The notes beneath the pieces were generated by a model. It was not told where the DNA came from and ran no database searches. It was given only the letters and a program-made list of their open reading frames with translations. 33,697 bases of DNA from an uncultured Prochlorococcus sp. (GTDB lineage Bacteria > Cyanobacteriota > Cyanobacteriia > PCC-6307 > Cyanobiaceae), in the NCBI GenBank assembly GCA_902574425.1, contig CACGNA010000012.1:1-33697 (forward strand), read 5' to 3'. The position numbers and the translations under genes are program-made. Positions 1,139-21,266 of this stretch are shown here, in pieces; within the stretch, counting starts at the first letter, position 1; each line of letters opens with the position of its first letter.

Positions 1139-1190
1139 AGATAAAAAAAAAGGAGCTAATTACCCCTTATTTTTGATCTGATTTAATCTA
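1139..1190 (-). promoter_or_regulatory. diverged copy of the accessory-gene leader cassette
   Basis: Read on the minus strand, a GATTAAATCAGATCAAAAAT block is followed by AAGGGGTAATTAGCTCCTT and a run of T. The second part can fold as a short hairpin with an AATTA loop. It resembles the better-conserved copies at 1897-1941 and 11040-11085, but the distance to the GTG start at 1085 is longer than in other copies. Confidence 0.45.
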
Positions 1191-1205
1191 TAAAATTTAA
1201 GACAT

Positions 1206-1237
1206 AAAAAAGACCCTATTCTGGGTCTTTTTTTTTT
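1206..1237. terminator. intrinsic terminator, usable in both directions
   Basis: GACCC-TATTCT-GGGTC stem-loop flanked by six A on the left and ten T on the right. On the plus strand the T-run is long. On the minus strand it would stop transcripts arriving from the 1633-1896 gene before they enter 795-1085. Confidence 0.7.
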
Positions 1238-1632
1238 GTTGACGACAGAGAGGAGATCTATTTGATAATCAGATTAAGAATTTTCTTAGAAATTAGTTTT
1301 GGAAGTAAAAGTGATAACTCACTTCTTCATGCTTTACAAACGACATGCTTTACAAACGACATGCTTTACAAACGACTTTATTTTTAAGATAGTTCAAAAT
1401 TAATCCCGAAAGTTTAATTTCTGATTACTTAACTTTCTTTCCGGAAAGGTTAGAGAAGTTTATTTACCTTAGTATTGCAGACTATGGATTAGTGAAGATC
1501 TAGTTGGTCAACCTTGGTCGAGTCGATCATCAGAACTTTCGTTTTATTAAGTTGATCGGTCTCAAATATTTTGCATGAATCCTTAAGATTGATTTAATCA
1601 TGATTAATTAAATCTTTAATCCTGGGACTACA
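1238..1632. other. gene-free stretch with tandem repeat and palindrome
   Basis: No convincing ORF on either strand. It contains a 16-bp unit repeated three times (1329-1376) and a perfect 12-bp palindrome CTTTCCGGAAAG (1437-1448). A few longer GC-containing words near 1500-1560 could belong to an untranslated RNA, but I cannot support one. Confidence 0.4.
1329..1376. repeat. three perfect tandem copies of a 16-bp unit
   Basis: The unit ATGCTTTACAAACGAC occurs at 1329-1344, 1345-1360 and 1361-1376 without a mismatch. It is not in a gene. 16 is not a multiple of three, and no stem or T-run marks it as a terminator. Confidence 0.95.
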
Positions 1633-1896
1633 TCATCCAACAAGCTCAATGGAATAAACGGTATCCTTACAATTATTTTTTTTATCCCATTCCTTTGCAA
1701 AAGGTGATTCCATCTCTTCACCTAATTTTTCTAAGTCAGTACAGTTCATTAATAAATGAGATTTGTGGTCATTGACTTTTACAAACTCATAATCAGTGAC
1801 AAACTCTTTGCACATTTCTTCAAGAAATAAATTAGTAACGTCATTTTTAAATTTTTCAAATGTACAGCTAAAAGTTGAGATGATGAGTGTGTTCAT
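1633..1896 (-). CDS. small hypothetical protein, intact member of a local paralogue family (DUF3764-like?)
   Basis: 87 residues, starting MNTLIISTFSCTFEKF and ending CKDTVYSIELVG. The N-terminal beta-strand plus helix (TFSCTFEKF) resembles the TVFTFKLSNTFEEW start of the protein at 10755-11039, which I associate with DUF3764; the link here is weaker. A close relative at 11595-11815 shares DLEKLGE.ME.PFAKE but is frameshifted, and a remnant of only the first codons sits at 3158-3226. The ATG follows directly the conserved leader cassette at 1897-1941 and has no Shine-Dalgarno sequence apart from what that leader offers. Confidence 0.65.
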   Translation of the reverse strand: MNTLIISTFSCTFEKFKNDVTNLFLEEMCKEFVTDYEFVKVNDHKSHLLMNCTDLEKLGEEMESPFAKEWDKKNNCKDTVYSIELVG

Positions 1897-1941
1897 AAAA
1901 AAAGGAGCTAATTGCCCTTTATGTTAGATCGACTGTCAATT
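1897..1941 (-). promoter_or_regulatory. recurrent accessory-gene leader cassette
   Basis: On the minus strand: TTGACAGTCGATCTAACAT, then AAAGGGCAATTAGCTCCTTT, which can fold (AAAGG/CCTTT plus GC/GC around an AATTA loop), then a T-run abutting the ATG at 1896. TAACAT sits where a -10 would put the RNA 5' end at the hairpin. The same order recurs elsewhere in the window. Confidence 0.6.
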
Positions 1942-2005
1942 GAAGTCCTATAAAACTACTTGACCTAAACATTTAAAAATATTTTTGTGCAGATACATAA
2001 TAAAA

Positions 2006-2095
2006 TACATATATGTAGCAGATATGTATAGATTTAATATTAATATGAGCATATATGACCTATTTCTTTACATTCATTAATATTTATGTTATATT
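2006..2095 (+). promoter_or_regulatory. hli promoter with upstream 15-bp element
   Basis: TTTACA (2067-2072), 17-bp spacer, TATATT (2090-2095), then 26 bases to the ATG of the first hli gene. The block TACATATATGTAGCA (2006-2020) lies 46 bp upstream of the -35. The same three elements with the same spacing precede the A-type hli genes at 3995 and 27984. An activator site, for example an HLR1/RpaB-type site, is possible but not shown. Confidence 0.75.
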
Positions 2096-2121
2096 TGTTT
2101 ACATAATCATTATTTTTAATT

Positions 2122-2229
2122 ATGACACCTGAAGCAGAAAGATTTAATGGTTGGGCGGCAATGCTCGGCTTCGTAGCAGCTGTTGGTTCCTACGTAACAA
2201 CTGGTCAAATCATTCCAGGTTGGTTCTAA
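2122..2229 (+). CDS. hli: high-light-inducible protein, 35 aa (type A)
   Basis: Begins MTPEAERFNGWAAMLGF and ends TTGQIIPGWF. It carries the chlorophyll-binding E..NGW.AMLGF signature of single-helix LHC-like (Hli/SCP) proteins, which protect the photosystems under light stress in the thylakoid membrane and probably bind chlorophyll a and carotenoid as dimers. It is among the shortest forms: essentially one membrane helix and no N-terminal extension. Too short for most ORF finders. Its TAA overlaps the next gene's ATG (TAATG), implying translational coupling. Near-identical copies are at 3995-4102 and 27877-27984. Confidence 0.93.
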   Translation: MTPEAERFNGWAAMLGFVAAVGSYVTTGQIIPGWF

Positions 2230-2438
2230 TGACAAATTCTTCATACATAACAACTGAATCTGATGGAAGACAAAATATGTTTCCTTCAGAAACTCGTCCA
2301 TACATAGATGAGTCTGTTTCATATGAGGGTTACCCTCAAAATGCTGAAAAAGTTAATGGTCGTTGGGCAATGGTTGGTTTCGTTTCATTGCTGGGTGCAT
2401 ACGTAACAACTGGTCAAATTATTCCAGGTATTTTTTAA
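2229..2438 (+). CDS. hli: high-light-inducible protein, 69 aa (type B)
   Basis: The start is the ATG overlapping the previous stop (TAATG at 2227-2231). The longer frame opening at 2151 reads the previous gene out of frame and is not real. A roughly 36-residue soluble extension (with FPSETRPYIDESVSYEG) precedes the pigment-binding helix EKVNGRWAMVGF and the conserved end TTGQIIPGIF. Thylakoid Hli protein as above. A relative at 26832-26993 has lost its N-terminal extension. Two Hli types encoded with one-base overlap suggest they are made together, perhaps as heterodimers (inference). Confidence 0.93.
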   Translation: MTNSSYITTESDGRQNMFPSETRPYIDESVSYEGYPQNAEKVNGRWAMVGFVSLLGAYVTTGQIIPGIF

Positions 2439-2548
2439 TCAGCCTATTAGCAAGTTTTTTGATTTTAATAGTCTCATTAACTGCTTTATTCGTCGCTTAT
2501 TTAACTAAATAACTTCAAAAACATCTAATTTATTTAAACCAAAATCAA

Positions 2549-2701
2549 ATGAAAAATTCAAAAACAATTTTAAAAACAAAAACAATCGAAAAAGAAAAAG
2601 TAGTTGCAGAAACTATCAACGGTAGATTCGCAATGCTTGGTCTTATGGCTGCTATTGGTGCATATCTAACTACTGGACAAATTATTCCAGGTTTTGTTTA
2701 A
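2549..2701 (+). CDS. hli: high-light-inducible protein, 50 aa (type C)
   Basis: Lys-rich N-terminus MKNSKTILKTKTIEKEK, then VVAETINGRFAMLGL with the E..NGR.AM.G pigment-binding motif, and the end TTGQIIPGFV. Single thylakoid helix. It differs from the copies at 4102-4248 and 27737-27877 mainly in the first 10-15 residues. The gap of 110 bases from the B-type gene holds no ORF with a standard start, though one frame spells a hydrophobic stretch ending at 2510. Confidence 0.92.
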   Translation: MKNSKTILKTKTIEKEKVVAETINGRFAMLGLMAAIGAYLTTGQIIPGFV

Positions 2702-2734
2702 CCAAAAACTTAAAAACAATCAACCACAAAGCAA

Positions 2735-2863
2735 ATGGAAAAATCACAATCTAACTATTGGCAAAATGCTGAAATAACTAATGGAAGAATGGCAATGATG
2801 GGCTTCTTTGCATTAGTAGTAAACTACGGTCTTTTTGGCTGGATCATTCCAGGTATTTTTTAA
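2735..2863 (+). CDS. hli: high-light-inducible protein, 42 aa (type D)
   Basis: Begins MEKSQSNYWQNAEITNGR and continues MAMMGFFALVVNYGLFGWIIPGIF. The pigment-binding motif AEITNGRMAMMGF is complete. The end differs from types A-C (NYGLFGW in place of AYVTTGQ), marking a separate Hli subgroup shared with 4678-4806 and, more distantly, 7565-7819. Membrane location in thylakoids is inferred from the family. One base separates its stop from the following ATG. Confidence 0.92.
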   Translation: MEKSQSNYWQNAEITNGRMAMMGFFALVVNYGLFGWIIPGIF

Positions 2864-2864
2864 A

Positions 2865-2954
2865 ATGAACATAGACTTTTTCTTAATCTCTTTCTTTATA
2901 TATCTTTTAGTGCCAGTGATAATGATAGCTAAAGGAAAAAAAGCAACTAACTAA
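2865..2954 (+). CDS. 29-aa membrane miniprotein of the hli module
   Basis: MNIDFFLISFFIYLLVPVIM forms one hydrophobic helix with a short basic tail (AKGKKATN). The ATG lies one base after the D-type hli stop, so it is co-translated. A near-identical copy (four substitutions) sits in the same place at 4808-4897, which is strong evidence that it is a real gene. Function unknown; a partner of Hli or of a photosystem subunit is possible. Confidence 0.8.
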   Translation: MNIDFFLISFFIYLLVPVIMIAKGKKATN

Positions 2955-2958
2955 AAAA

Positions 2959-3138
2959 ATGAATTTAGGAATTCTCTTTCTCAAAGTTAATACCACTGGA
3001 GTAATAACTTTATCTGAATTGGATTGGGTTGCAAATCATCAATCACAATTTTCAAGATTAGATATGGCAATAGTTTTAAAAATTGGTCGACTTATGGATG
3101 AAGGAATAATAGAACTTGATTGTAGATTGCCAGTATAA
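2959..3138 (+). CDS. 59-aa hypothetical protein of the hli module
   Basis: Begins MNLGILFLKVNTTGVITLSE and ends IIELDCRLPV. It looks like a small soluble alpha/beta protein with one Cys. The duplicate at 4902-5081 has substitutions that mostly keep or conservatively change residues, which indicates selection on the protein. It is the last gene before the large-loop hairpin at 3158-3198. Function unknown; linkage to hli genes suggests a stress-related role. Confidence 0.8.
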   Translation: MNLGILFLKVNTTGVITLSELDWVANHQSQFSRLDMAIVLKIGRLMDEGIIELDCRLPV

Positions 3139-3157
3139 ATATTTAAAAATTAAATAG

Positions 3158-3198
3158 TCATGAGAGCTTGCTTTTAGGGATATAGGTAAGCTTTTTTT
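3158..3198 (+). terminator. terminator-like hairpin with 14-nt GGGATA loop
   Basis: AGCTTGC-TTTTAGGGATATAG-GTAAGCT followed by seven T: a 7-bp stem (one G-U) closing a 14-nt loop. It ends the first hli module. The loop core AGGGATA recurs in hairpins at 5095-5136 and 28233-28270, and GGGATA at 26478-26516 (minus). Ordinary terminators have 4-8-nt loops. Confidence 0.8.
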
Positions 3199-3226
3199 GT
3201 TTTCTATCTTTGATGAGTATGTTCAT
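3158..3226 (-). pseudogene. 5' remnant of a 1633-1896-type gene
   Basis: After the leader cassette at 3227-3273, the ATG and first codons (MNILI) match MNTLI of the intact gene at 1633-1896 almost base for base. The frame then runs straight through the hli terminator hairpin and stops after 22 codons. The body of the gene has been replaced, apparently by the end of the inserted hli module. Confidence 0.6.
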
Positions 3227-3273
3227 TAAAAAAAACGGGCTAGTTGCCACTTATTTTAGATCGACTGTCAATC
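3227..3273 (-). promoter_or_regulatory. leader cassette left in front of a truncated gene
   Basis: On the minus strand GATTGACAGTCGATCTAAAAT, then GGC-AACTA-GCC and a run of eight T before the ATG. The conserved block is the best match to the consensus in the window, although the gene it served is gone. Confidence 0.6.
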
Positions 3274-3653
3274 ATTCTCCTTTTGTATCTTCTTAAGTCT
3301 TTTGTATTCCTGATTTAGAACACCTAAACTCCAAGAACCTATTAATTCAGTAGAATTAAATAAACTAAATATTTATTTTGAATAAGAGACATCAGTTAAA
3401 TATAAATATAGATGAGGCTTTACTAAGATTTTTATCTTTTCTTGAAAAACATAAATTGCTTTGAATAAAGGTGATTGAAGGGATCAAAATATGGATTGAT
3501 TAGTGTGCTTTTAAGATGGTTGTTATTTCCTAATAGTCACTGATTTACATCAAGATATAAGTCTCTTAAAAACAAAGGATCTTCTTTTAAGTATTTTCTA
3601 CGTTGTTTTTATCTGAGATTCTGATTTGAATTAGAAAAGCTATAGATATTCCT
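3274..3653. other. gene-free stretch between the two hli modules
   Basis: Short stop-rich frames only. A 28-codon frame near 3377-3463 (ending EKHKLL) has only a TTG start and is not supported. No terminator or repeat seen. Confidence 0.4.
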
Positions 3654-3761
3654 ATGGAAAAATCATTTGTAAATTTCATTTATTGGATCCTAGTAAAGTC
3701 AGCTGAAAGTTACTATGGCGACGCAACGAAAACAGAAGTATCATACACTCCTTATTTTTAA
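3654..3761 (+). CDS. 35-aa hypothetical miniprotein
   Basis: MEKSFVNFIYWILVKSAESY then YGDATKTEVSYTPYF. The N-terminal half can form an amphipathic or membrane-associated helix and the C-terminal half is polar and aromatic. The style (short helix plus extended tail) resembles the 50-aa protein at 32095-32247. No clear ribosome-binding site, so this is a candidate only. Confidence 0.45.
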   Translation: MEKSFVNFIYWILVKSAESYYGDATKTEVSYTPYF

Positions 3762-3880
3762 ATCTCCAATGTTTTGTTAATTAAGATTTAGAAAAGATCT
3801 TTGATCATATTGTCTTCTTACAATATATATTTTCTAATTTTTAAATCCTGAGCAGTTTGCTCATAATTCTAAAAATATTT

Positions 3881-3970
3881 TACATATATGTAACATAACT
3901 GTTTAAGATTGTTTTTATAACATGTAATTTAGATAAATTTCTTTACATTAATTAATACCTGTGTTATATT
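3881..3970 (+). promoter_or_regulatory. hli promoter with upstream 15-bp element
   Basis: TACATATATGTAACA (3881-3895), then 46 bp, TTTACA (3942-3947), 17-bp spacer, TATATT (3965-3970) and 24 bases to the ATG. Same architecture as at 2006-2095, although the bases in between have diverged. Confidence 0.75.
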
Positions 3971-3994
3971 TCTTTACATAATATATTTTTAATT

Positions 3995-4102
3995 ATGACT
4001 CCAGAAGCAGAAAGATTTAACGGTTGGGCGGCAATGCTCGGTTTCGTGGCAGCTGTTGGCGCATACGTAACAACTGGTCAAATTATTCCTGGTTGGTTCT
4101 AA
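3995..4102 (+). CDS. hli: high-light-inducible protein, 35 aa (type A)
   Basis: Same protein as at 2122-2229 except Ala for Ser near residue 23. Motif EAERFNGWAAMLGF and end IIPGWF intact. First gene of the second hli module. The stop overlaps the next ATG (TAATG). A start at 4024 in another frame is an artefact. Confidence 0.93.
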   Translation: MTPEAERFNGWAAMLGFVAAVGAYVTTGQIIPGWF

Positions 4103-4248
4103 TGACAAATTCAAAAACAAAAACAAAAACAATCGAAAAAGAAAAAGTAGTTGCAGAAACTATCAACGGTAGATTCGCAATGCTTGGTCTTATGGCTGCT
4201 ATTGGTGCATATCTAACGACTGGACAAATTATTCCTGGCTTTGTGTAA
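4102..4248 (+). CDS. hli: high-light-inducible protein, 48 aa (type C)
   Basis: MTNSKTKTKTIEKEKVVAET, then INGRFAMLGLMAAIG and TTGQIIPGFV. From KTKTIEKEK on it equals the C-type protein at 2549-2701. Its first residues (MTNS) match the start of the B-type gene at 2229 instead, so the gene looks like a fusion of a B start and a C body, as if the B gene had been deleted between them. Both ends overlap neighbours by one base (TAATG). Confidence 0.92.
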   Translation: MTNSKTKTKTIEKEKVVAETINGRFAMLGLMAAIGAYLTTGQIIPGFV

Positions 4249-4430
4249 TGCTTGAGGCAGGAATTAACACTTGGATTAACACTATACTTTTTCCTTTTAT
4301 GCCAGTCATAACAGTACTTATTGTTAGTGCATTAATGTTGAATGATTTGCCATGGAATGATGATGATGACGATGATGATGGCGGTGGATTAACCACCCCG
4401 TTGTATAACTATGTTCCCCAAGGGGTTTAG
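4248..4430 (+). CDS. 60-aa membrane protein with poly-Asp tail
   Basis: One hydrophobic segment (about 11-31: TILFPFMPVITVLIVSALML) followed by a very acidic Asp/Gly run (NDDDDDDDGGG) and an aromatic end NYVPQGV. The ATG overlaps the stop of the preceding hli, so it is translationally coupled to it. The acidic tail could bind Mg2+/Ca2+ or a basic partner on one side of the membrane (inference). It has no counterpart in the first module. Confidence 0.75.
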   Translation: MLEAGINTWINTILFPFMPVITVLIVSALMLNDLPWNDDDDDDDGGGLTTPLYNYVPQGV

Positions 4431-4445
4431 AGGATATACATCAAA

Positions 4446-4633
4446 ATGATTTTCATCTCATCTTTATTTAACTCAGTCCCTTCAAATGCTAAAGACCTTT
4501 TAGAGTTTGGTTTCTTTCTTACTGTGGGTTTTACAGCAGGAAAAGTAGGACTCTTATAAAAACATATCTAAATACCATATCACTATTTGTCATCGCAATA
4601 ATGACTACTGTGATAGCACTAAGTATTGCTTAA
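4446..4633 (+). pseudogene. small membrane protein, probably broken by a one-base deletion
   Basis: ATG at 4446 opens 37 codons (MIFISSLFNS ... FFLTVGFTAGKVGLL) to TAA at 4557-4559. In the -1 frame the sequence continues without a stop from about 4545 to TAA at 4631-4633 as a second hydrophobic helix (TISLFVIAIMTTVIALSIA). The simplest reading is a two-helix protein of about 60 residues with one base lost near 4545-4550. The 37-aa product could still be made, or a -1 frameshift at GGAAAAG could join the halves. Confidence 0.5.
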
Positions 4634-4677
4634 GCGCTATAAAAATTTAATCATTCTTATTAACGAACAATAAAAAA

Positions 4678-4806
4678 ATGGAAAACTCAAAACCAACTTA
4701 TTGGCAAAATGCCGAGAGAACAAATGGAAGGATGGCAATGATGGGCTTCTTCGCATTAGTAGCTAACTATGGTCTCTTTGGCTGGATAATCCCAGGTATT
4801 TATTAA
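4678..4806 (+). CDS. hli: high-light-inducible protein, 42 aa (type D)
   Basis: MENSKPTYWQNAERTNGR then MAMMGFFALVANYGLFGWII. It is the counterpart of 2735-2863 with a handful of substitutions, none in the NGR.AMMGF pigment motif. It is followed by the same 29-aa and 59-aa genes with the same spacing as in the first module, so this three-gene block moved or was copied as a unit. Confidence 0.92.
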   Translation: MENSKPTYWQNAERTNGRMAMMGFFALVANYGLFGWIIPGIY

Positions 4807-4807
4807 A

Positions 4808-4897
4808 ATGAATGTAGATATTTTCTTAATCTCTTTCTTTACATATCTATTAGTGCCAGTGGTAATGATAGCTAAAGGGAAAAAAGCAACTAACTAA
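4808..4897 (+). CDS. 29-aa membrane miniprotein of the hli module
   Basis: MNVDIFLISFFTYLLVPVVM plus the tail IAKGKKATN; paralogue of 2865-2954. The differences (I/V, F/I, I/T, I/V) keep the helix hydrophobic, as expected of a translated gene. One base separates it from the hli stop. Confidence 0.8.
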   Translation: MNVDIFLISFFTYLLVPVVMIAKGKKATN

Positions 4898-4901
4898 AAA
4901 T

Positions 4902-5081
4902 ATGAATTTAGGTATTCTCTTTCTCAAAGTTAATACAACTGGAGTAATAACTTTATCTGAATTGAATTGGATTACAAATCATCAATTACAATTTTCAAGA
5001 TTAGATATGGCACTAGTTTTAAAAATTGGTCGCTTAATGGATGAAGAAATAATAGAACTTGATTGTAGGTTGCCAGCATAA
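4902..5081 (+). CDS. 59-aa hypothetical protein of the hli module
   Basis: Paralogue of 2959-3138, beginning MNLGILFLKVNTTGVITLSE and ending ELDCRLPA. About eight residues differ (for example D/N, V/I, A/T, S/L, I/L, G/E) with no indel or stop. It precedes the second GGGATA-loop hairpin. Confidence 0.8.
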   Translation: MNLGILFLKVNTTGVITLSELNWITNHQLQFSRLDMALVLKIGRLMDEEIIELDCRLPA

Positions 5082-5094
5082 TTTAAGAGAATCG

Positions 5095-5136
5095 TCATGA
5101 GCTTGCTTTTAGGGATATAGGCAATCTTTTTTTTGT
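5095..5136 (+). terminator. terminator-like hairpin with 14-nt GGGATA loop
   Basis: GCTTGC-TTTTAGGGATATAG-GCAATC followed by eight T. The 14-nt loop is identical to that at 3158-3198 while the stem differs (GCAATC versus GTAAGCT), with one stem mismatch. Loop identity exceeding stem identity suggests the loop matters. Confidence 0.75.
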
Positions 5137-5202
5137 TTTTTATTTATTGTTATGTTACTGGTACGAGGTCTCTAAATGCTTAAAAGCCTGTTATGTGTTT
5201 AT

Positions 5203-6398: not shown

Positions 6399-6442
6399 AA
6401 AAAAATAGCTAATTGCTACTCATCCCATATCGACTGTAAATC
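6399..6442 (-). promoter_or_regulatory. leader cassette, hairpin well preserved
   Basis: Minus strand GATTTACAGTCGATATGGGAT, then TAGC-AATTA-GCTA and seven T before the ATG at 6398. The -10-like part (TCTAAAAT elsewhere) is altered here. Confidence 0.5.
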
Positions 6443-8074: not shown

Positions 8075-8707
8075 TTAGGAGTTCGCTAATCGCGAAATAT
8101 AAGTTTCAAGATTACCAGCATTTATCCAACCGGTTGCGATAGTTTTAAAAGCAGTATGATTGACTTTCCCGCGATGAATATGAGAAATCCCTGCTGGAAA
8201 GATAATAAGTTTTCCTCTTTCAGCTTTCTCATGATGATTCTGCCAATGAAATTCTGTCCCGCCAGAAGTAACATCATTACAATAAAGAATCCAAGCTAAT
8301 ACTCTGTGAACAGGTTCTGTAGATTCATTACTAATAGTCCAATCGCAATGCCATTTCTTAAATCCTTCTCCCGGAGCATAACGTTGTAAATTAAATATCG
8401 GGTTAACAAATAAAGATTGTTCTGGGCAACATTCCTTTACTAGTGGCCGATCTTCTAGATATTTTTTTAGTGCAGCATTCACTCCTCTAATTATAACTTC
8501 AGAGATTGCAAAGGCTTCTGGATCTGAACGATCTATAGAAACAAGACTAATATCAGTTGAAACTTTGTATGGATCAGAATTCAAAGAGATGTTTTGACCA
8601 AAAACGATACCATTAGTATGTAAGTCTTTACGGCGATCAAAGAAAGAAATAACACCATCAGCTACAGCCTCGAATCCTGAATTCTTATATTTCCCAATTA
8701 GTTCCAT
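8075..8707 (-). CDS. 2-oxoglutarate/Fe(II)-dependent dioxygenase (prolyl-4-hydroxylase-like)
   Basis: 210 residues. The double-stranded beta-helix core carries the iron ligands HxD (WHCDW, His120 and Asp122) and the distal His in SHIHRGK (about His178); Lys188 in FKTIATGW is placed to bind 2-oxoglutarate. LQRYAPGEGFKKWH and GGTEF are typical of 2OG-FeII_Oxy_3 (P4H) domains. Such enzymes hydroxylate proteins or small molecules using O2 and 2-oxoglutarate; the substrate is unknown. The ATG comes directly after the leader cassette, so it probably shares regulation with the other cassette-driven genes. Confidence 0.88.
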   Translation of the reverse strand: MELIGKYKNSGFEAVADGVISFFDRRKDLHTNGIVFGQNISLNSDPYKVSTDISLVSIDRSDPEAFAISEVIIRGVNAALKKYLEDRPLVKECCPEQSLFVNPIFNLQRYAPGEGFKKWHCDWTISNESTEPVHRVLAWILYCNDVTSGGTEFHWQNHHEKAERGKLIIFPAGISHIHRGKVNHTAFKTIATGWINAGNLETYISRLANS

Positions 8708-8762: not shown

Positions 8763-9188
8763 TTATTCTTCAGGATTCAAAGTAGGTACACCTTCTGCTG
8801 AAGCCACAGCAACCCACATAACTGCTGAAGAATCACCACTATTAGCCATTGTATGAGCAGGAGTATTTGCTGAGAGAACAAATGAATCTCCTTCCTTAAA
8901 GGTTTTACTAATACCTGTCTTTTCATCAAGAGTTAATTCACCACTTTCAATATGACCTAGTAAAGGTACAGGATGAGAATGCATTGGTATAGTTGCTCCA
9001 TTTTCAACTTCTACTCTAATCAAACGCATTTCAGCTTTTCCTTTTGGATACTTAAAATTATCGCCATCAATGTTTTCTGAAGAGGTGAAGATTTCTTGTA
9101 CATCAACAGGTGATTCTGCAGCTATAGAAATGCTTGGGCTCATAAGCATTAATGAAAAAGCTAATGCTATTAAAAAATTCTTAATCAT
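8763..9188 (-). CDS. secreted cupin-domain protein
   Basis: 141 residues with a signal peptide (hydrophobic 4-18, likely cleavage after SIAA near 24). The mature part is one cupin barrel: GATIPMHSHPVPLLGHIESG (about 64-83; His70, His72) supplies motif 1, and NTPAHTM (His112) motif 2. These His residues usually bind a divalent metal. Periplasmic metal-binding or sensory role by family; substrate unknown. It starts about 100 bases after the DsrE-like gene and ends about 5 bases after the 2OG oxygenase leader block, with no strong terminator seen. Confidence 0.82.
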   Translation of the reverse strand: MIKNFLIALAFSLMLMSPSISIAAESPVDVQEIFTSSENIDGDNFKYPKGKAEMRLIRVEVENGATIPMHSHPVPLLGHIESGELTLDEKTGISKTFKEGDSFVLSANTPAHTMANSGDSSAVMWVAVASAEGVPTLNPEE

Positions 9189-9837: not shown

Positions 9838-9893
9838 TGAAGAGGAAAAAAAAAGAGGGTTTTATATCTCTATGTTAGATCTATTGTTAATCA
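9838..9893 (-). promoter_or_regulatory. leader cassette before a broken gene
   Basis: Minus strand GATTAACAATAGATCTAACAT, then AGAGATATAAAACCCTCT and nine T. It is a close relative of the copy at 8708-8757 whose stem now has mismatches. Confidence 0.5.
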
Positions 9894-10094: not shown

Positions 10095-10391
10095 TTAATG
10101 AGTCACACCACCATCCATGATTGTGATATTTGTATCGATTGAGTTCGCCCATCGTAACTTGCTTAGTTCCTTATATTTAGCACTATTGTAAGCATCAATA
10201 GCAGCTTGCTTTGATGGGAACTCAATAATTACTGATAATTTACCACCCTTTCCTTCTACAGTTTTACTATCTAGATCCTTTGCAAAAACAGAACCACCTA
10301 CTGAAGCTATCCAGGGTTGAAATGCTTCAACATATTCAGCAAAAGCTGGATTTGTAACTGTAGTAGTGACGAGCCAAAATCCTTTAGACAT
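10095..10391 (-). CDS. DUF1330-family protein, intact copy
   Basis: 98 residues: GFWLVTTTVTNPAFAEYVEA, then FQPWIASVGGSVFAKD and a conserved VIIEFPSKQAAIDAYNSAKY. This is the ferredoxin-like dimeric alpha/beta-barrel pattern of DUF1330 (strand, 'F..Y', 'GG..F+', 'EFPS...A...Y.S..Y'). Members are small soluble proteins of unknown function, some resembling heme- or peroxide-handling dimeric barrels. A second, broken DUF1330 gene is at 16850-17191. Confidence 0.82.
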   Translation of the reverse strand: MSKGFWLVTTTVTNPAFAEYVEAFQPWIASVGGSVFAKDLDSKTVEGKGGKLSVIIEFPSKQAAIDAYNSAKYKELSKLRWANSIDTNITIMDGGVTH

Positions 10392-10754: not shown

Positions 10755-11039
10755 CTAATTTGAGACCCAACTTGTGATTTTTGTTGTGCTATATATATGA
10801 CCTCCAGCTTCTATATTCTTTATTGTTTCTGGATCTGAAAATACATGCTTAGCTATGCCTTCTTCAGCTTGATGAATAACAATAACTTCTTTTGGATCAA
10901 TTAAACTTTTGCCTCGATATAGAGGAGTTAGGCCTACTGTTTTATGAAATGCATCTATCTCAGGACTATCAAACATTTTTACCCACTCTTCAAATGTATT
11001 TGAAAGTTTAAAGGTGAAGACAGTAGTTTCAATAGTCAT
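10755..11039 (-). CDS. DUF3764-like protein
   Basis: 94 residues beginning MTIETTVFTFKLSNTFEEWV, with a central TPLYRGKSLIDPKEVIVIHQ and end TKITSWVSN. The ferredoxin-like small alpha/beta pattern and the first line fit what I remember of DUF3764, a family seen in marine picocyanobacteria; the number is from memory. It is driven by the leader cassette directly upstream and followed immediately by the broken secreted-protein gene. Confidence 0.72.
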   Translation of the reverse strand: MTIETTVFTFKLSNTFEEWVKMFDSPEIDAFHKTVGLTPLYRGKSLIDPKEVIVIHQAEEGIAKHVFSDPETIKNIEAGGHIYSTTKITSWVSN

Positions 11040-11102: not shown

Positions 11103-11342
11103 CTAGTAGTTATCGAATTTGGTTTTTCTCCAACCTTGAGAAAGTAATCTTTCATAAATTTCTCTAGCTAAATCTATTTCTACAGAGACTGTTGTTGTTA
11201 TGATTGGAGGCTCTTTCCCTAATACTCCAACTATTTTCCCAGAGTCAATAAACATATACTCGAAGACTCCTTCAATACTCTTATCGTTCTTTATAAATCT
11301 TTTAACTTCTGATCTATTTGAATTTATTAGCCAGTATTCCAT
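11103..11342 (-). CDS. DUF1651-like protein
   Basis: 79 residues. MEYWLINSNRSEVKRFIKND, then a strand-rich centre with VLGKEPPIITTTVS and the C-terminal AREIYERLLSQGWRKTKF. The layout 'W.i......+F..d..s....PP......A...Y..LL..GW++' matches the marine picocyanobacterial DUF1651 family. Function unknown. The ATG overlaps the stop of the 46-aa gene by one base, so it is the last gene of a coupled small-gene operon. Confidence 0.72.
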   Translation of the reverse strand: MEYWLINSNRSEVKRFIKNDKSIEGVFEYMFIDSGKIVGVLGKEPPIITTTVSVEIDLAREIYERLLSQGWRKTKFDNY

Positions 11343-16434: not shown

Positions 16435-16716
16435 TTATTTATCAAACTTATTGCGTTTTTTATTAATAGGTCCTTTTTTTTGTTCAGCCTTATTGACCCT
16501 GATTTCTCTTCCCATCCATTCAACATCTTGAAGATCGTCAATAGCATTTTTCTCGGAATTTTGATCATTTAAATCTACAAATGCAAAACCTCTTTTTCTG
16601 CCTGTTTCTCTATCGAGAGGTAAATAACATTTCTTTACTACTCCATAATTACTAAAAAGTTGTTCAAGATCTTCAACTTCAGTTTCCCAAGATAAATTTC
16701 CAATAAAAATAGTCAT
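16435..16716 (-). CDS. RRM-type RNA-binding protein (Rbp)
   Basis: 93 residues from ATG at 16714-16716: MTIFIGNLSWETEVEDLEQL. RNP2 is IFIGNL (3-8) and RNP1 is KRGFAFVDL (41-49), both with the aromatic residues that stack on RNA bases. A basic tail (KKGPINKKRNKF) follows one RRM, the usual layout of cyanobacterial cold-inducible Rbp proteins, which bind single-stranded RNA and may affect mRNA location or cold response. The longer frame to 16782 adds 22 residues unlike the family, so the inner ATG is preferred. Confidence 0.9.
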   Translation of the reverse strand: MTIFIGNLSWETEVEDLEQLFSNYGVVKKCYLPLDRETGRKRGFAFVDLNDQNSEKNAIDDLQDVEWMGREIRVNKAEQKKGPINKKRNKFDK

Positions 16717-16849
16717 TTCTGTAAAGTCTTTTAGTGAATGTACAAATAGTTGCTTTGGACTAGTGAAGTTATCTCCAATCAAATGCTTCCATTATTCTTA
16801 CTCTAACTCTTTATTCGCTATATATCGAGTAGAAAAATATAGATATATT

Positions 16850-17191
16850 TTACATACCCATTGCTCTTCTTAGCTTTGCAGCTTCATCTAAACCTTCCAT
16901 AATTGTGAATGTAGAATTTTCAGTAGCTTCTTGTCTTAGTTTTGAAAGCTCTCTATATTCTTCAGATTCATAAGCTTCAACCGCTGCTCTCATGGAAGGA
17001 AATTCACAAATAACGGCTAAATTGGCATCCTCGGTCCTCTCCTTTCCTTGAGGCTCTGTATTTTTTGCAAAAACTTGTCCGCCAATCCCTTTTAGCTATG
17101 GACCAACTTTATTTACATATTCATCAAATAAATCCTGATTAATTATTTTTGCCGTTGATATCCAGTATCCTTTAGCTCCACTTTTATCCAT
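16850..17191 (-). pseudogene. DUF1330 protein broken by TGG to TAG
   Basis: Frame from ATG 17189-17191: MDKSGAKGYWISTAKIINQD, then VGP, TAG (17096-17098, codon 32), then LKGIGGQVFAKN and VICEFPSMRAAVEAYESEEY. The intact paralogue at 10095-10391 has PWIASVGGSVFAK at this place, so the stop replaces the conserved Trp. 81 codons after the stop remain open, so the loss is recent, or an assembly error should be excluded. Confidence 0.82.
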
Positions 17192-17202
17192 GATGCATTT
17201 AT

Positions 17203-17235
17203 GTTTCTAATATAAATTTAGATTAACTGTCAATC
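17203..17235 (-). promoter_or_regulatory. leader block before the broken DUF1330 gene
   Basis: Minus strand GATTGACAGTTAATCTAAAT, without the hairpin and T-run seen in other copies. The ATG follows within about 15 bases. Confidence 0.45.
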
Positions 17236-17244
17236 AAATGGAAT

Positions 17245-17379
17245 CTATTTCTCAGAATTATAATCTAGTTTATTCTGAAGCTTAGCTGCCTTATGCAATA
17301 AACCTACAGCTTCTTTTCTCCCAGTTGCTATGGATGCTTGATGTAATAATTCAGCATACTTTTTAGTTAATTTTTTCAT
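17245..17379 (-). CDS. 44-aa basic hypothetical protein
   Basis: MKKLTKKYAELLHQASIATG then RKEAVGLLHKAAKLQNKLDY. Two amphipathic basic helices with repeated 'LLH.A', soluble. It precedes the broken DUF1330 gene, whose leader starts right after its stop. Function unknown. Confidence 0.6.
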   Translation of the reverse strand: MKKLTKKYAELLHQASIATGRKEAVGLLHKAAKLQNKLDYNSEK

Positions 17380-17411
17380 TGGTTTAATTTTTCAATGTGA
17401 TATGAACAGGC

Positions 17412-17600
17412 TTAATAAGTAAGTTTAATCTTATCCTTTCCAATAGTAGCTAGATCAAAAAAAACTTGATTATCAGAAAGTATTTGACTCTTGCAGTTCG
17501 CAACCTTTTTCAGGAATTCTTTAGCTTGGTCAATATTGCTACCCCTTATCTCTACCTGAGATTAAACAATCATATCATGAACTACAAAATATATTCTTTT
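17412..17600 (-). pseudogene. unrecognised gene remnant with stop
   Basis: A frame reads YFVVHDMIV, TAA (complement 17562-17564), then SQVEIRGSNIDQAKEFLKKV and a natural-looking end FDLATIGKDKIKLTY. Residue choice looks protein-like on both sides of the stop, and another stop bounds it upstream. No family recognised. Confidence 0.45.
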
Positions 17601-17929
17601 TTAAGCTTCAAGTTCTTATGCCTTAATAGCTTATGAAAGGTTTTTTGTATCCAAATTCATCTCTTATACAGTCATTGTATCGTTTAGTGAAATAAGGCTT
17701 ACCTCTTGACTAAACCCTTATTCTCATTCATTTGAATAGTTAATTTCAATTTTTATATTTGCGTTTAGAGGAGCAAAATTGAACGGATTAGGTATCAAGA
17801 TAAATCTCAAATTAAAAATAATTACCAGAAAAATATATTCAAAACATTAATTTTAAGTTCAAAAATATGTATAAAGTTTGGATAGAAATTATCTTCCTTT
17901 ATCTTCTTTCTGAGATAAGCCAGTATTCT

Positions 17930-18055
17930 TCATCCATCTAATCTATCTGCGTATTCTCTTAAAACTTCAGCCATCTTATGAGGTGGAATTTCTTTTTGAT
18001 ATTCTCTACATAAATCAAAAAATTTATTTAAGAAATCTTTCATTGAAGAGGACAT
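17930..18055 (-). CDS. 41-aa hypothetical protein, intact paralogue
   Basis: MSSSMKDFLNKFFDLCREYQ then KEIPPHKMAEVLREYADRLD. A small helical, acidic protein. The first ATG is used here; an inner Met5 corresponds to the start of the broken copy at 9724-9837. Last gene of a minus-strand small-gene operon starting at 18469. Confidence 0.65.
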   Translation of the reverse strand: MSSSMKDFLNKFFDLCREYQKEIPPHKMAEVLREYADRLDG

Positions 18056-18064
18056 GAAATTAAA

Positions 18065-18160
18065 TTAGCGTTTCATTCTAAAAGTAATGTAAGCAAACAC
18101 ACCAAGCAATAAAATACTTAGCACTCCATAAGTAATTGCTATGCCATACATGTAAGTCAT
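18065..18160 (-). CDS. 31-aa membrane miniprotein
   Basis: MTYMYGIAITYGVLSILLLG and VFAYITFRMKR: one helix with a basic end, so N-out/C-in is likely. The ATG overlaps the stop of the preceding gene (ATGA). It has no counterpart in the sister operon at 11.1-11.8 kb, where a DUF1651-like gene takes this place. Confidence 0.6.
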   Translation of the reverse strand: MTYMYGIAITYGVLSILLLGVFAYITFRMKR

Positions 18161-18297
18161 TTATTTATAAAGATATAAGTGCAATATAAATAATCTAATT
18201 AAAATCCTATAGCAAAAGAACTTCGATTAATAAGAAAGTTCCAAATTTTAAATAATTTAGTTTTTAAAAATTCTTGTTTGTCTTTTTTAGTAATCAT
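18157..18297 (-). pseudogene. paralogue of the 46-aa membrane protein with stop in helix
   Basis: MITKKDKQEFLKTKLFKIWN, then FLINRSSFAIGF and a TAA where the intact copy (11342-11482) has a Leu codon, then LDYLYCTYIFINK. Both overlaps with neighbours are preserved, so the reading frame was recently functional. A truncated 33-residue product lacks most of the helix. Confidence 0.7.
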
Positions 18298-18410
18298 TTA
18301 CTTTCTTTTTCTTTTCTCGCAGCATTACCTTTAGCTCTTAATAGCAAAGTTATTGTAAGGGCAGCGCTAAGTATCACAGCATCAATTAATAGGTGTGGGG
18401 AGATATTCAT
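18294..18410 (-). CDS. 38-aa membrane miniprotein
   Basis: MNISPHLLIDAVILSAALTI, TLLLRAKGNAARKEKESK: one clean transmembrane helix and a basic tail. Paralogue of 11479-11595. Overlaps both neighbours by four bases (ATGA), so coupled translation is likely. Confidence 0.7.
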   Translation of the reverse strand: MNISPHLLIDAVILSAALTITLLLRAKGNAARKEKESK

Positions 18411-18469
18411 AAGATGATAAGAGAAATAAGAAGAGTTATTATCTTTTCAGCAATAAATCTTTTATCCAT
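18407..18469 (-). CDS. 20-codon leader ORF
   Basis: MDKRFIAEKIITLLISLIIL with a TGA overlapping the ATG of the 38-aa gene. Hydrophobic C-terminal half. In the sister operon a remnant near 11852-11865 starts MDNKFIKSI and stops early. Could be a coupling leader or a tiny membrane peptide. Confidence 0.4.
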   Translation of the reverse strand: MDKRFIAEKIITLLISLIIL

Positions 18470-18516
18470 TAAAAAATATGGGTTTATCTATCTAAGTTTA
18501 TATCGACAGTTAATCA
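18470..18516 (-). promoter_or_regulatory. leader cassette copy without hairpin
   Basis: Minus strand GATTAACTGTCGATATAAACT, then about 30 bases with a run of six T shortly before the ATG at 18469. The overlapping inverted repeat GACAGT-TAATC-ACTGTC (18505-18521) is specific to this copy. Confidence 0.45.
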
Positions 18517-18617
18517 CTGTCTATTTTAGATTTTCAGTTTCTCTTAATAAAAAATTATTTTATTTAACTGGAACAAGAGAAGGCACTTGCAAGAATATTT
18601 TTAAAAATATCTTAGGG

Positions 18618-18645
18618 AAGAAGGGGTCAAAAATTGACCCCTCTT
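18618..18645. terminator. strong GC-rich hairpin, possible terminator
   Basis: GGGGTCAA-AAA-TTGACCCC (8-bp perfect stem), extended by AAGA/TCTT. There is no T-run after it on either strand, so it may act as an RNA stabiliser or weak terminator rather than a classic terminator. Confidence 0.5.
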
Positions 18646-18756
18646 GGTGAAACTCTTCCAAAGAAACACCATAGAAAGTTTACCTTGAAAAATGCAAATT
18701 TAATTAAATTTACAATATCAAGATTAAAAATTTAATCTGCGAGTCCCATTTTTTGC

Positions 18757-18879
18757 TCATATATTATTAATGAGCCAACTAATTTTTTGCTCAACAATTT
18801 TTTCTTCATCAGTCATTACTGGCTTGATATCAAAATCTATATCAAATTTAACTTTCCAAGAAGAAAAATGTTCTGTCAT
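18757..18879 (-). CDS. 40-aa hypothetical protein, uncertain
   Basis: MTEHFSSWKVKFDIDFDIKP then VMTDEEKIVEQKISWLINNI. The composition looks natural, with alternating pattern then an acidic helix. The opposite strand is also open here (18770-18976), and a 28-codon frame with AGGAG before its ATG overlaps upstream, so which is translated is unclear. Confidence 0.4.
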   Translation of the reverse strand: MTEHFSSWKVKFDIDFDIKPVMTDEEKIVEQKISWLINNI

Positions 18880-19003
18880 TTTTATAACTGCTGAAGCCTG
18901 GACAAAATATAAAAATTATTTGAGTAAGAGTCATGATATCTCCTCAAAAATTAAAATTCATCAAAATCATCTTTAAAAAAGATCTCCAACTTGCTTTTAA
19001 AAA

Positions 19004-19213
19004 TTAAGCGGCCTTTTTAAAAGGGTTCATATTCTTTAGAAAGTTATTACTTTTGTTGTCACTCATTTGTCTATATCTTTGATTTATTTCCAGGATATAT
19101 TTTCTAGCTTTTTTGTCACTTTCAATTTTCTGTTTTCGAAGACGTAAAGACCTTAAATCTTCTATTGACATGAGGCTATCATCTTGGTTGGATTTAAAAT
19201 GATCAAATTGCAT
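19004..19213 (-). CDS. 69-aa basic hypothetical protein
   Basis: MQFDHFKSNQDDSLMSIEDL, then a highly charged helix LRLRKQKIESDKKARKYILE and a tail NMNPFKKAA. Soluble, rich in Lys/Arg and Asn. No family recognised; nucleic-acid binding is possible from charge alone. Confidence 0.6.
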   Translation of the reverse strand: MQFDHFKSNQDDSLMSIEDLRSLRLRKQKIESDKKARKYILEINQRYRQMSDNKSNNFLKNMNPFKKAA

Positions 19214-19761
19214 CAGTTTAAGAAATTAATTGTCTTCTTTAAGTGCTAGATTAACAACCTCGTAGTTATTTGCAATAGATATAATTAACTAATTTGATTT
19301 CAATAAGGTGGTTGATTTTTAGTGGGCTATAAATTTAAATATTAAAACCTTCAAATAAATATTTTTTAAAATCAAGAAAAACTTTTGAGCGAATTATATT
19401 GAACTTCTACTGATGCCATTGATTCGCCGTAATGTGATTCGGCTGATTTTATTAGTAACCAGTAAAAAAAGTTAACTAAAGCTTTATCCACGAGAATTTA
19501 GAAACTAATCTAAATAACCTAATAAATTTTGTAATAGCAATATACACAACAAATTTATTAAGCAATCAAGATATTTATATTAAAAACAGTATAGATTTAT
19601 ATTCATCAAGAAAGATTAGCACCTTTAGCAGCGTACTTAACCCCCTTTGAGTATTGGACTTTAGCCCGCGCTCTCTTTTTAGTAAACGAAAAATGGCACT
19701 TTAAGGGAGTTTATAAATAAAGAATCCAAGTTTGAATTGAAATTTAGTTTCACTTAAGGCT
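19214..19761. other. gene-free stretch with a GC-richer block
   Basis: Nothing convincing except 19615-19700, clearly more GC-rich than its flanks. Its minus strand has two open frames lacking a standard start (one very basic, with KKRARAKVQYSKGVKYAAKG). It could be a gene fragment or an RNA. Confidence 0.4.
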
Positions 19762-19790
19762 TGACAATTGAGTATAAATACTTTATTAAT
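19762..19790 (+). promoter_or_regulatory. consensus-like promoter
   Basis: TTGACA (19762-19767), 17-bp spacer, TATTAA (19785-19790). It would start transcription near 19797, just before the structured leader at 19811-19880. Confidence 0.6.
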
Positions 19791-19810
19791 AGAGTGTAGT
19801 AAATTTTATA

Positions 19811-19880
19811 AAATCGTCCGATCTACCATCAGATAGACCGCAGTACGACTCAAGCCATAGGACGGGGACTTGAGCAAGAT
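19811..19880 (+). promoter_or_regulatory. structured 5' leader, candidate glutamine (glnA / Downstream-peptide) riboswitch
   Basis: A GC-richer block in an AT-rich region, between a good promoter and a short ORF. CGTCC (19815-19819) can pair with GGACG (19860-19864), ATCT/AGAT form a small hairpin (near 19821-19834) and CTCAAG/CTTGAG pair at 19849-19854/19869-19874. The arrangement ATCGTCC ... GGACGG before a very short ORF resembles what I remember of the cyanobacterial glnA and Downstream-peptide motifs. The match is by eye and the conserved 3' part (AAGTAGG in that family) is not obvious. Confidence 0.45.
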
Positions 19881-19893
19881 CAGGAGCTGCATC

Positions 19894-19995
19894 ATGGTAA
19901 AAATGTATTTCAATGGAAAGTCATTCGTATATTGTAAGAAGCAGGAAGAGAAGATAATAAAACTTACTTATAGAGGATCTAGTTACTTAAGATAA
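19894..19995 (+). CDS. 33-aa peptide behind the structured leader
   Basis: MVKMYFNGKSFVYCKKQEEK then IIKLTYRGSSYLR. AGGAG (19881-19885) lies eight bases before the ATG. KLTYRGSSY recalls the KLTYRG.SY start of cyanobacterial DUF4278 proteins, though here it is at the end. Basic, with one Cys. The leader-plus-peptide layout parallels riboswitch-controlled small inhibitors of nitrogen metabolism in cyanobacteria, which is only an analogy. Confidence 0.6.
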   Translation: MVKMYFNGKSFVYCKKQEEKIIKLTYRGSSYLR

Positions 19996-20552
19996 GAGTT
20001 CTAATTTATTTTAAATATCTAATAAAAAATTTATTTAAGAGGTACTACTAAATTTATTAATGCTCCTTTTGCCATACTCCACAATAAATAAACTCATTAG
20101 ATTAACAAAAAAGGAATCTTATATTTTGAATTTTGGAGAAGCTAAAGAGACAATCAACCAATTCTGAATGAATATAAGTAATCTGTTTTTTAAGAGTATC
20201 GTTCTTTAAAAATTGCCACACAAAATTCTTGCTATTAAAAAATATAGATATCTTTATTACTAATTCCATTAGAATTATTCCTAATAAATATGTTTTTTGT
20301 TGTTATTGATTTATTGATGAGAGGAGAAATTACACTTAAAAAGGCTAGATAAATATATTACTCATCAAATTATCTTTTAAAAATTTTTGGCATGTATTTA
20401 AGTTATTTATAAACCAGTATTTATTTATACTTTATAAGAAAAACTTATGGTTAAAATAGTTTTTTCCTATTTTTAAAGTTATTTATTTGTATATCTTGTA
20501 ACGTGAAATTTATCTAGATATTATTAATTTGTAATCAGATTTTACCAGCTTT
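19996..20552. other. gene-free AT-rich stretch
   Basis: No ORF over about 25 codons with plausible composition, no strong hairpin, no repeat seen. Confidence 0.5.
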
Positions 20553-20680
20553 ATGCAACCGATTTCTGAAGAACTTTACAGAAAAATAGTTGAGAGTTCA
20601 AAAAAATGAGTAAGTTACTAATTGCTTTATTAGCTTTAGATATAGGTGTTAGTCTTTCTAAAATTTATATTTTCACCTGA
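20553..20680 (+). CDS. two overlapping tiny ORFs, doubtful
   Basis: MQPISEELYRKIVESSKK (20553-20609) overlaps by ATGA with MSKLLIALLALDIGVSLSKI, ending YIFT (20606-20680), one short hydrophobic helix. The overlap style is that of other coupled genes here, but there are no paralogues or ribosome-binding sites to support them. They may be the remains of longer genes. Confidence 0.3.
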
Positions 20681-20831
20681 TAATCAAATAACTTTAGAAA
20701 AAAAGAACTAATTAAAGTGTTGAAGATAGGCTATAAGTATTAGATACTTATTATTTTTTTTAGAGTTTCAATTTATAAAATCAATAATTAAACCAATAAA
20801 GGAGCTACCATCAATAAGGCTATTAACTTTG

Positions 20832-21221
20832 CTAATCCCATAAAGATAAATCTGAATCTCCTGTTGATCGTTGCATCCAATGTATTTTCCAAATGTTGTC
20901 TACTTTTTTAAAAATAGAAGTAACTGTTGGTAAATCATCATTAGGTTTACCTTTGTAGCTAAATTTTGAACCAAGAGTGAAAATGCACATTACTATATTT
21001 TCACTTAAAAATTCGAATCGATGTATTTTAGTTATTTCTGCCTTTTCTTGAATGACATCACCAGAAGTCATCATTTGTTCAAATCCTGCTGCATCAAGGG
21101 GATTGCCACTAGGTCTGATTAACAAAAAATCTGAAGTTGCATTTTTAATAAAAAAAGAACCCATTTTTTCTGGGGTCGCAAGCTCATTTAATAATGAAAT
21201 TATTTTTTCTTTATCAGACAT
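20832..21221 (-). CDS. NTF2/SnoaL-like protein, 129 aa (DUF3804-like)
   Basis: Helical first third (MSDKEKIISLLNELATPEKM), then strands with FLLIRPSGNPLDAAGFEQMM, NIVMCIFTLGSKFSYKGKPN and TSIFKKVDNIWKIHWMQRST. The 'l.rpsGnp......f..m' and the terminal 'W+i.w.qRs' fit an NTF2-like cone; I recall DUF3804 for such picocyanobacterial/algal proteins, from memory only. Small-molecule binding or enzymatic role unknown. A leader-block copy lies directly upstream. Confidence 0.7.
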   Translation of the reverse strand: MSDKEKIISLLNELATPEKMGSFFIKNATSDFLLIRPSGNPLDAAGFEQMMTSGDVIQEKAEITKIHRFEFLSENIVMCIFTLGSKFSYKGKPNDDLPTVTSIFKKVDNIWKIHWMQRSTGDSDLSLWD

Positions 21222-21266
21222 AAGAATAACGATTTATTGTCTTTAGTTTAGATCGACTATTTCAAC
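21222..21266 (-). promoter_or_regulatory. diverged leader block
   Basis: Minus strand GAAATAGTCGATCTAAACT, then about 25 bases to the ATG. The AGTCGATCTAAA core is kept; hairpin and T-run are not. Confidence 0.45.

Follow-up and report, generated by a model that had tools for sequence, protein, structure and literature searches.

Integron attC sites carry the core boxes RYYYAAC and GTTRRRY, and tycheposons are tRNA-associated carriers of mobile cargo that occupy Prochlorococcus islands and encode tyrosine recombinases. A 48-bp element repeated in Prochlorococcus islands was reportedly described by Coleman in 2006, with no anatomy, promoter role or crossover mapping, and the promoter early stem-loops (PeSLs) of T4-type phages are said to go back to papers by Arbiol in 2010 and Comeau in 2014. 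PMC4503421 presents PeSLs as composite promoter-terminator motifs linked to gene shuffling, and describes cyanophage S-PM2 as being without the high PeSL density of other T4-like phages. For the archaeal myovirus HGTV-1, PMC3950731 reports a TATA-like region and an inverted repeat before many open reading frames (ORFs), for which gene shuffling was proposed. In a 33,697-nt stretch of DNA from an uncultured Prochlorococcus sp. (contig CACGNA010000012.1), hereafter called the window, a 45-bp block recurs in front of unrelated genes. We propose, with a probability of about 0.62, that this block is a junction element, both promoter and terminator, and that island genes are shuffled along it. Its anatomy, genus-wide spread and co-oriented arrays, the shuffling of its partners, a linkage switch inside its core and the conservation of its −10 hexamer before genes were all established by comparing copies.

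A sequence pattern fetched at least 119 loci, 80 of which were searched with R1, a 45-position sequence-only model built from 11 copies; the best 150 of 183 R1 matches were aligned, and 33 weak ones were omitted. Altogether, 310 matches gave 288 unique contexts, of which 277 had at most six core mismatches, and 274 junctions were left once L203 and short or repeated flanks had been removed. The locus-fetching pattern is matched by 95 of these 274 junctions, which overstates how well the core is conserved and how common class-1 hairpins are; the two main tests were run again on the 179 that do not match it.

The block opens with a 21-bp core, GATTGACAGTCGATCTAAAAT; a hairpin and a T-run follow, and often there is a start codon after them. 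In the 277 contexts, conservation spans position 1 to about position 45, and position 0 is T in 68% of them. Positions 1–15 form a near-palindrome, GATTGAC-A-GTCGATC, matching at 12 of 15 letters (hereafter the dyad), which is conserved beyond the needs of a −10 hexamer. T16, A17 and T21 are nearly invariant and A18–A20 less so, the signature of a −10, and there is no conserved −35. The left edge, often TGATTGA, holds two stop codons in different phases, and 18 of 95 upstream ORFs terminate within the block itself. To the right of the −10, the hairpin falls into two sequence classes, AAGGGGC-AATTA-GCTCCTT and AGAGGG-ATAAAA-CCCTCT, followed by the T-run; the mean fold energy of 179 distinct hairpins was −4.2 kcal/mol, compared to −0.9 kcal/mol for mononucleotide shuffles. 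The evidence for structure thus comes from two unlike sequences that fold a hairpin at the same place, and not from covariation.

The 274 junctions join 125 upstream to 111 downstream DNA families in 226 pairings, and nearly every family with several members has more than one partner (at least two partners for 47 of the 49 upstream families and for 30 of the 33 downstream ones). At 319 block-less junctions of the same loci, this was the case for only 22 of 51 upstream and 22 of 46 downstream families; these 319 are the clean control, since a first control (45/83 and 40/75) had included loci with unmasked blocks. When protein families were used instead of DNA families (121 junctions), at least two partners were again found for 16 of 17 upstream and 13 of 16 downstream families. 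Furthermore, in 205 pairs of copies that are alike upstream only, identity averages about 0.9 as far as the block and 0.27 past it, being lost within or after the hairpin, and 180 pairs alike downstream only show chance identity up to position 1 and about 0.9 after the block. As these one-sided pairs lose their identity at the block, divergence does not explain the variety of partners.

The blocks also often lie between two genes that point the same way. Of 225 junctions, 123 have a stop codon at most 40 bp upstream, 125 a start codon at most 10 nt downstream and 75 both, compared to 12%, 7.5% and 1%, respectively, at random positions. Of 110 pairs of neighbouring blocks 100–2500 bp apart, 100 share a strand and 10 lie on opposite strands, in tallies which, like the 225 junctions, count near-identical strains apart; when each pair of junction types was counted once, the numbers were 87 and 9. 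Among the 100 same-strand intervals, 27 measure 300–399 bp, and the median is 837 bp. Taken together, these patterns indicate that the block is a junction between genes, a role absent from the preliminary description, whose "portable regulatory unit" appears to be only half of the matter: portability held up, and the junction role was missing from it.

The exchanges could be placed more narrowly by asking which flank each position follows (226 pairings, one representative each). Position 1 and everything to its left track the upstream family, with z 10.6 for position 1 itself. From position 23 on, most positions track the downstream family. Positions 2–22 clearly track neither, the small signals among them being those at 9 (upstream), at 15 (upstream and downstream) and at 16 (downstream); a small upstream signal was also seen at position 38. 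The switch persisted among the 157 pairings left without the fetching-pattern junctions (z 8.1 at position 1). Exchanges therefore fall inside the core of 21 bp, and a gene takes along the hairpin in front of it. In one clean case, two loci differ by exactly one gene: L131 reads flank A, block, a 348-bp cassette, block, flank B, and L170 reads A, block, B. Over 120 bp, their A flanks are 97% and their B flanks 98% identical, the hairpin of B differs by one letter, and the stop codon of the cassette is a TGA inside the next core. L145 and L155 are likely a second case of an empty site, with B 99% identical and A alike beside the block but shifted by an insertion or deletion.

The −10 hexamer behaves as part of a promoter. 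Where an ORF starts right downstream, 98 of 99 junction types have T16, A17 and T21 (T1, A2 and T6 of the hexamer) intact, compared to 74 of 86 where none does (p = 0.0007), in line with the earlier proposal that TAAAAT is a −10; without the fetching-pattern junctions, the counts were 64 of 65 and 51 of 64 (p = 0.0005). For positions 2–15, by contrast, the mismatch rate in this second set is equal with and without a gene behind (0.064 and 0.071). The −10 thus seems to be kept for the gene behind and the dyad for another reason. When all junction types were considered, dyads followed by a gene had 0.73 mismatches and the others 0.94 (p = 0.09); for dyads preceded by a gene the figure was 0.64, compared to 1.02 for those with none upstream (p = 0.045), so that dyad conservation is perhaps tied to the upstream side. 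These results support the view that a predicted sigma70-type promoter and a stem-loop are combined in one intergenic motif.

The usual sigma70 spacing between −10 and start puts +1 at block positions 27–30, where the 5' arm of the hairpin ends or its loop lies. The block's own transcript would then be without most of the 5' arm and would form no hairpin. Consequently, the suggestion that the RNA begins with the hairpin was not supported, and it is unlikely that a hairpin in the leader stands in for a ribosome-binding site, the pairing being also without covariation. A leader RNA with a 5' hairpin was set aside on these two grounds.

The block, or a decayed or partial form of it, was read at each of the ten places named in the preliminary description, always on the minus strand. 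A pattern search allowing at most three mismatches found five sites in the window, compared to 0.01 expected from shuffles. The ten places comprise six full blocks, one full block with a decayed hairpin, one core without hairpin, one decayed core with hairpin, and one weak copy; the six main copies score 35–46 bits with R1.

1139–1189, minus strand: hairpin and T-run with a decayed core; R1 25 bits over 1145–1179
1897–1941, minus strand: block, with core at 1921–1941 and hairpin plus T-run at 1897–1920, adjoining ORF 1633–1896; R1 45 bits
3227–3273, minus strand: block with a perfect 21-bp core, preceding a 22-codon gene remnant; R1 46 bits
6398–6442, minus strand: block with an altered −10 (TGGGAT), preceding a 21-codon remnant; R1 37 bits
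8708–8754, minus strand: block with hairpin AGAGGG/CCCTCT, between the cupin stop (8763) and the 2-oxoglutarate (2OG) oxygenase start (8707); R1 40 bits
9848–9892, minus strand: block with a decayed hairpin, preceding a 13-codon remnant; R1 35 bits
11040–11084, minus strand: block between a DUF1651 gene (11103–11342) and a DUF3764 gene (10755–11039); R1 41 bits
17215–17235, minus strand: core without hairpin, 9 bp past the stop of ORF 17245–17379
18471–18515, minus strand: block with a decayed hairpin, whose downstream start MDKRFIAEK... is also found behind an intact block in L006; R1 31 bits
21222–21266, minus strand: weak copy preceding the DUF3804 gene; R1 16 bits over 21222–21258, E 0.0025

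Of the copies that had been called weaker, two are in fact partial, one having kept the core (17215–17235) and the other the hairpin with a decayed core (1139–1190). The observation that truncated genes keep the block in front of them was confirmed for the ORFs of 22 and 21 codons behind 3227–3273 and 6399–6442 and for the 13-codon remnant behind 9848–9892, and so was the lack of relation between the proteins encoded behind the blocks (2OG-Fe(II) oxygenase, DUF3764 and DUF3804). On the other side, the block closely trails the stop codons of unrelated upstream genes (8 bp for the cupin gene and 18 bp for the DUF1651 gene, among others). The genes concerned, and the only two Rfam matches at gathering scores in the window, neither of them at a block, are as follows.

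1633–1896, minus strand: 87-amino-acid gene behind a block, without a Pfam match at E 0.01
8075–8707, minus strand: 2OG-Fe(II) oxygenase gene behind a block (PF13640; PHROG 2OG oxygenase)
8763–9188, minus strand: cupin gene (PF07883), ending 8 bp ahead of a block
10755–11039, minus strand: DUF3764 gene (PF12594) behind a block
20832–21221, minus strand: DUF3804 gene (PF12707) behind the weak copy
19812–19874, plus strand: glutamine-II riboswitch (Rfam)
26485–26574, minus strand: Yfr20 (Rfam)

Two versions of a cluster of small genes, presumably of the high-light-inducible kind, lie at 2116–3138 and 3990–5081 of the window, separated by a block and a gene remnant (3273). A DUF1330 gene (10095–10391) accompanies the DUF3764 gene, and three of ten cassette proteins scanned (L219, L187, L197 and L013 being among the sources) match DUF3303 and one matches ABM; we take several of these four families to be dimeric alpha/beta barrels.

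Beyond the window, a degenerate core pattern has 12 sites in the window's own genome (65% complete), one of which (L003) resembles a chance match within a coding stretch, compared to one site for the reversed control. All 25 genomes of the window's genus that were searched with R1 carry copies, 4–23 each, whereas a single weak match was obtained in one of 15 genomes of other families. Of 201 genomes drawn from the family, 22 were matched, and among the matches listed 10 belong to the same genus (9–18 copies) and 12 to other genera (1–2 copies). The core alone, with at most two mismatches, was found at 53 sites in five near-complete genomes and its reversed pattern at none. A scan of species genomes with the class-1 pattern returned at least 119 stretches, 118 titled Prochlorococcus or Synechococcaceae and one a Bacteroidales metagenome-assembled genome. 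In G015, most strong copies are clustered at 347–360 kb and 1347–1364 kb, which we take to be two known islands.

A few copies lie in other surroundings. In a 2.3-Mb genome from another genus of the family, one strong block (L121; G200:C1:314184-314225) stands before a 390-codon ORF, and its upstream flank resembles, by eye, one in G015, which looks like a transfer between genera. Blocks or degenerate copies were also found about 26–34 nt before two apparent core genes (L007, L122 and L111; L125, L116, L111 and L107), presumably encoding an RluB-type pseudouridine synthase and an SRAP/YedK-type MCG protein. Finally, weak copies of G015 (L098, at 655674–655717, and 656690–656709) lie near the expected position of MED4 PMM0684-0686, as deduced from the yfr7 coordinates in PMC1242208; these MED4 genes are reported to be phage-induced in PMC2518516.

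Among 2.9 million viral contigs, short core patterns matched three and three, four in all; one of them (L253) is a chance match in coding sequence, and the other three (L255, L258 and L254) carry blocks recognised by R1, although they may be chimeras. A strict 24-bp pattern, a class-2 hairpin pattern and a further degenerate pattern each had no match in the viral contigs. L255 has blocks at 5–49, 328–367 and 1036–1079, one of them 22 nt ahead of a uvsX gene that is 79–80% identical to Prochlorococcus phage DNA. In L258, the block (520–562) directly follows a phoH gene whose closest matches are in methylophages and pelagiphages, and is itself followed by a 41-codon ORF that resembles, by eye, the one at 17930–18055 of the window. 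The block of L254 (22–61) is situated where an 85-kb contig ends, behind an ORF of no known family, and no phage gene was recognised there. Named phages gave no match to the DUF3764 protein of L255, to its cassette DNA or to L254, and scanning the viral contigs with the DUF3764 protein of the window returned no relative. The cupin scan of viral contigs found the contig of L255 itself and L257, from the same sample, in which the same cupin is joined to phage genes inside the cupin gene, so that it looks chimeric. We treat the phage link of the block as suggestive.

The junction-element reading can be put together as follows. From 5' to 3', the block has a 15-bp near-palindromic core, a −10 hexamer, a terminator-like hairpin with T-run and, in about half of the copies, the next start codon, and the left edge of the core, often TGATTGA, stops incoming frames in two of three phases. 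One cassette would comprise the hairpin, the T-run, the gene and the left edge of the following core, and recombination between the cores of unrelated neighbours would join any gene end to any gene start, so that the joined gene arrives with its own promoter. Transcription would start inside the hairpin, whereby the gene's own transcript escapes termination, and read-through RNA from upstream would form the hairpin, meet the U-run and terminate. The block would in this manner end one gene, start the next and shield each from the other. The exchange may proceed by homologous recombination on short identical cores, with cell or phage machinery and no dedicated integrase, which is the simplest reading.

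Several observations weigh against this proposal. Fifty-two of the 225 junctions are near neither a stop nor a start codon. Five of 12 empty-site matches were read letter by letter, and one proved clean, one likely and three unconvincing; over all arrays, empty sites were not above chance (12, compared to a mean of 7.4 and a maximum of 15 in label shuffles). The main hairpin class showed no covariation (6.02 of 7 pairs formed, compared to 6.04 in shuffles, among 125 sequences). Hairpin energy did not differ significantly between copies with and without a gene upstream (p = 0.07 and 0.94), and a proven role as upstream terminator was therefore set aside in favour of a putative one. In L145 (2132–2651), a DsrE-like cassette, read by eye, is oriented antisense to the block and would not be driven by it, so not every block serves as the promoter of a sense gene; the reversed −10 (ATTTTA) of that copy may act as a T-run in the opposite direction. 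Tyrosine-recombinase genes near blocks in seven loci, counted as raw occurrences, leave room for an integrase: in L085 (1553–2728, from G106), a 391-amino-acid ORF like the 389-amino-acid PF00589 protein shared across the family ends 8 bp before a block, in L200 a relative of this protein ends just ahead of a weak core copy, and in L223, L075, L231, L201 and L106 a relative lies within about 1.3 kb of a block.

This last point leads to the question of whether a recombinase binds the 15-bp near-palindrome and crosses over there to excise and insert cassettes, as in an integron-like site-specific system. The co-oriented arrays with their class of 300–399-bp intervals, the precise cassette difference between L131 and L170, the confinement of exchanges to the core and a dyad kept alike with or without a gene behind it are all consistent with such a system, as are the recombinase-like ORF of L085 and, as raw occurrences, the relatives of the 389-amino-acid protein in six further block loci. 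Among 11 genomes surveyed, six have one or two PF00589 matches beyond the family-wide protein (two matches in five genomes and three in one), and the extra matches lie about 12–18 kb from blocks in G156, G004, G024 and G022. However, the five other genomes have a single match, the family-wide protein, and four of them (G015, G134, G228 and G175) carry blocks nonetheless, the fifth, G000, being incomplete; moreover, the family-wide protein occurs in 77 of 80 fairly complete family genomes, whether they have blocks or not. The serine-recombinase-like PF00239 protein, one in each of the 11 genomes and with relatives in 28 of the 80, reads YARAID or YARATH at the place of the catalytic serine motif, and in the copies inspected in two genomes (L251:494-1180 and L252:441-1064) the catalytic serine is seemingly absent. 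It is perhaps a regulator, and the L252 protein has a sub-threshold HTH_7 match. The dyad is also shorter than the sites of either recombinase class. As none of the candidates in the PF00589 and PF00239 surveys tracks the block, though recombinase genes adjoin some copies, a dedicated recombinase was not retained, and we regard the integron-like system as doubtful but worth keeping in view. A bolder version, in which high-light Prochlorococcus would have a chromosome-wide cassette system of a distinct kind, with a promoter-bearing crossover site whose near-palindrome is cut by a hypothetical recombinase and with single genes exchanged between island arrays and phages, building the hypervariable islands one ready-expressed gene at a time, is speculative and rather improbable.

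It is distinctly unlikely that the block is nothing other than the shared, regulated promoter of a regulon, with the dyad (−27 to −13) as operator and with incidental shuffling in the only intergenic DNA that tolerates breakpoints. A near-palindrome conserved beyond the needs of the −10 and a −10 conserved with a gene behind it would be expected of such a promoter, and island genes are reported in PMC2518516 to respond to light, phosphorus and phage; on the other hand, the dyad is kept equally well where no gene follows, block junctions shuffle more than block-less ones of the same loci, and the linkage switch falls inside the core. The many dispersed copies of one short hairpin sequence might also recall a small mobile repeat of the miniature inverted-repeat transposable element or repetitive extragenic palindromic type, inserting between existing genes. 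Such an insertion should keep the gene pair, yet 205 and 180 pairs are alike on one side only and no insertion into an unchanged pair was seen (target duplications were not searched for), and the fixed orientation and distance to start codons are unexpected of insertion, which makes this origin extremely improbable.

Prochlorococcus cells are among the most abundant photosynthetic cells on Earth, and the turnover of small genes in their hypervariable islands is only partly explained. If the junction-element reading is true, an exchange seam and a promoter united in one 45-bp element would explain how foreign genes land expressed and insulated, and the block would provide a mechanical handle on island turnover.

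Compared to known systems, the block shares island mobile cargo with tycheposons, but these are tRNA-associated, and no tRNA was found in the window. It may be the same as the 48-bp element attributed to Coleman, which is similar in length, genus and island location; among the results listed by full-text literature searches, there was no account of that element. As in integrons, co-oriented cassettes of small genes are split by a repeated site, and one exact cassette difference was observed (L131/L170). In contrast to integrons, the promoter is part of the site, no tyrosine recombinase other than the family-wide one occurs in four block-bearing genomes that are complete or nearly so, and neither attC core box was seen by inspection of either strand of the block consensus; as for an integron-type integrase, five of the 11 genomes have the family-wide PF00589 protein only, IntI itself not having been searched for. 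HGTV-1, compared by description only, likewise has a repeated promoter-like region with an inverted repeat, and differs in being an archaeal virus. The closest known system is that of the PeSLs, which are, as proposed for the block, composite promoter-terminator motifs between genes and whose copies recombine to shuffle genes; recombination between copies that shuffles modules is seen for the block as well, from sequence patterns only. The block differs in its place on the chromosome of a free-living cyanobacterium, in its genus-wide spread and in the conserved 15-bp near-palindrome adjoining the −10. We have not filed it as a PeSL because its terminator activity is only predicted and its home is a bacterial chromosome, but if our reading is true, the phage trick of PeSL shuffling would have been carried into a cell lineage.

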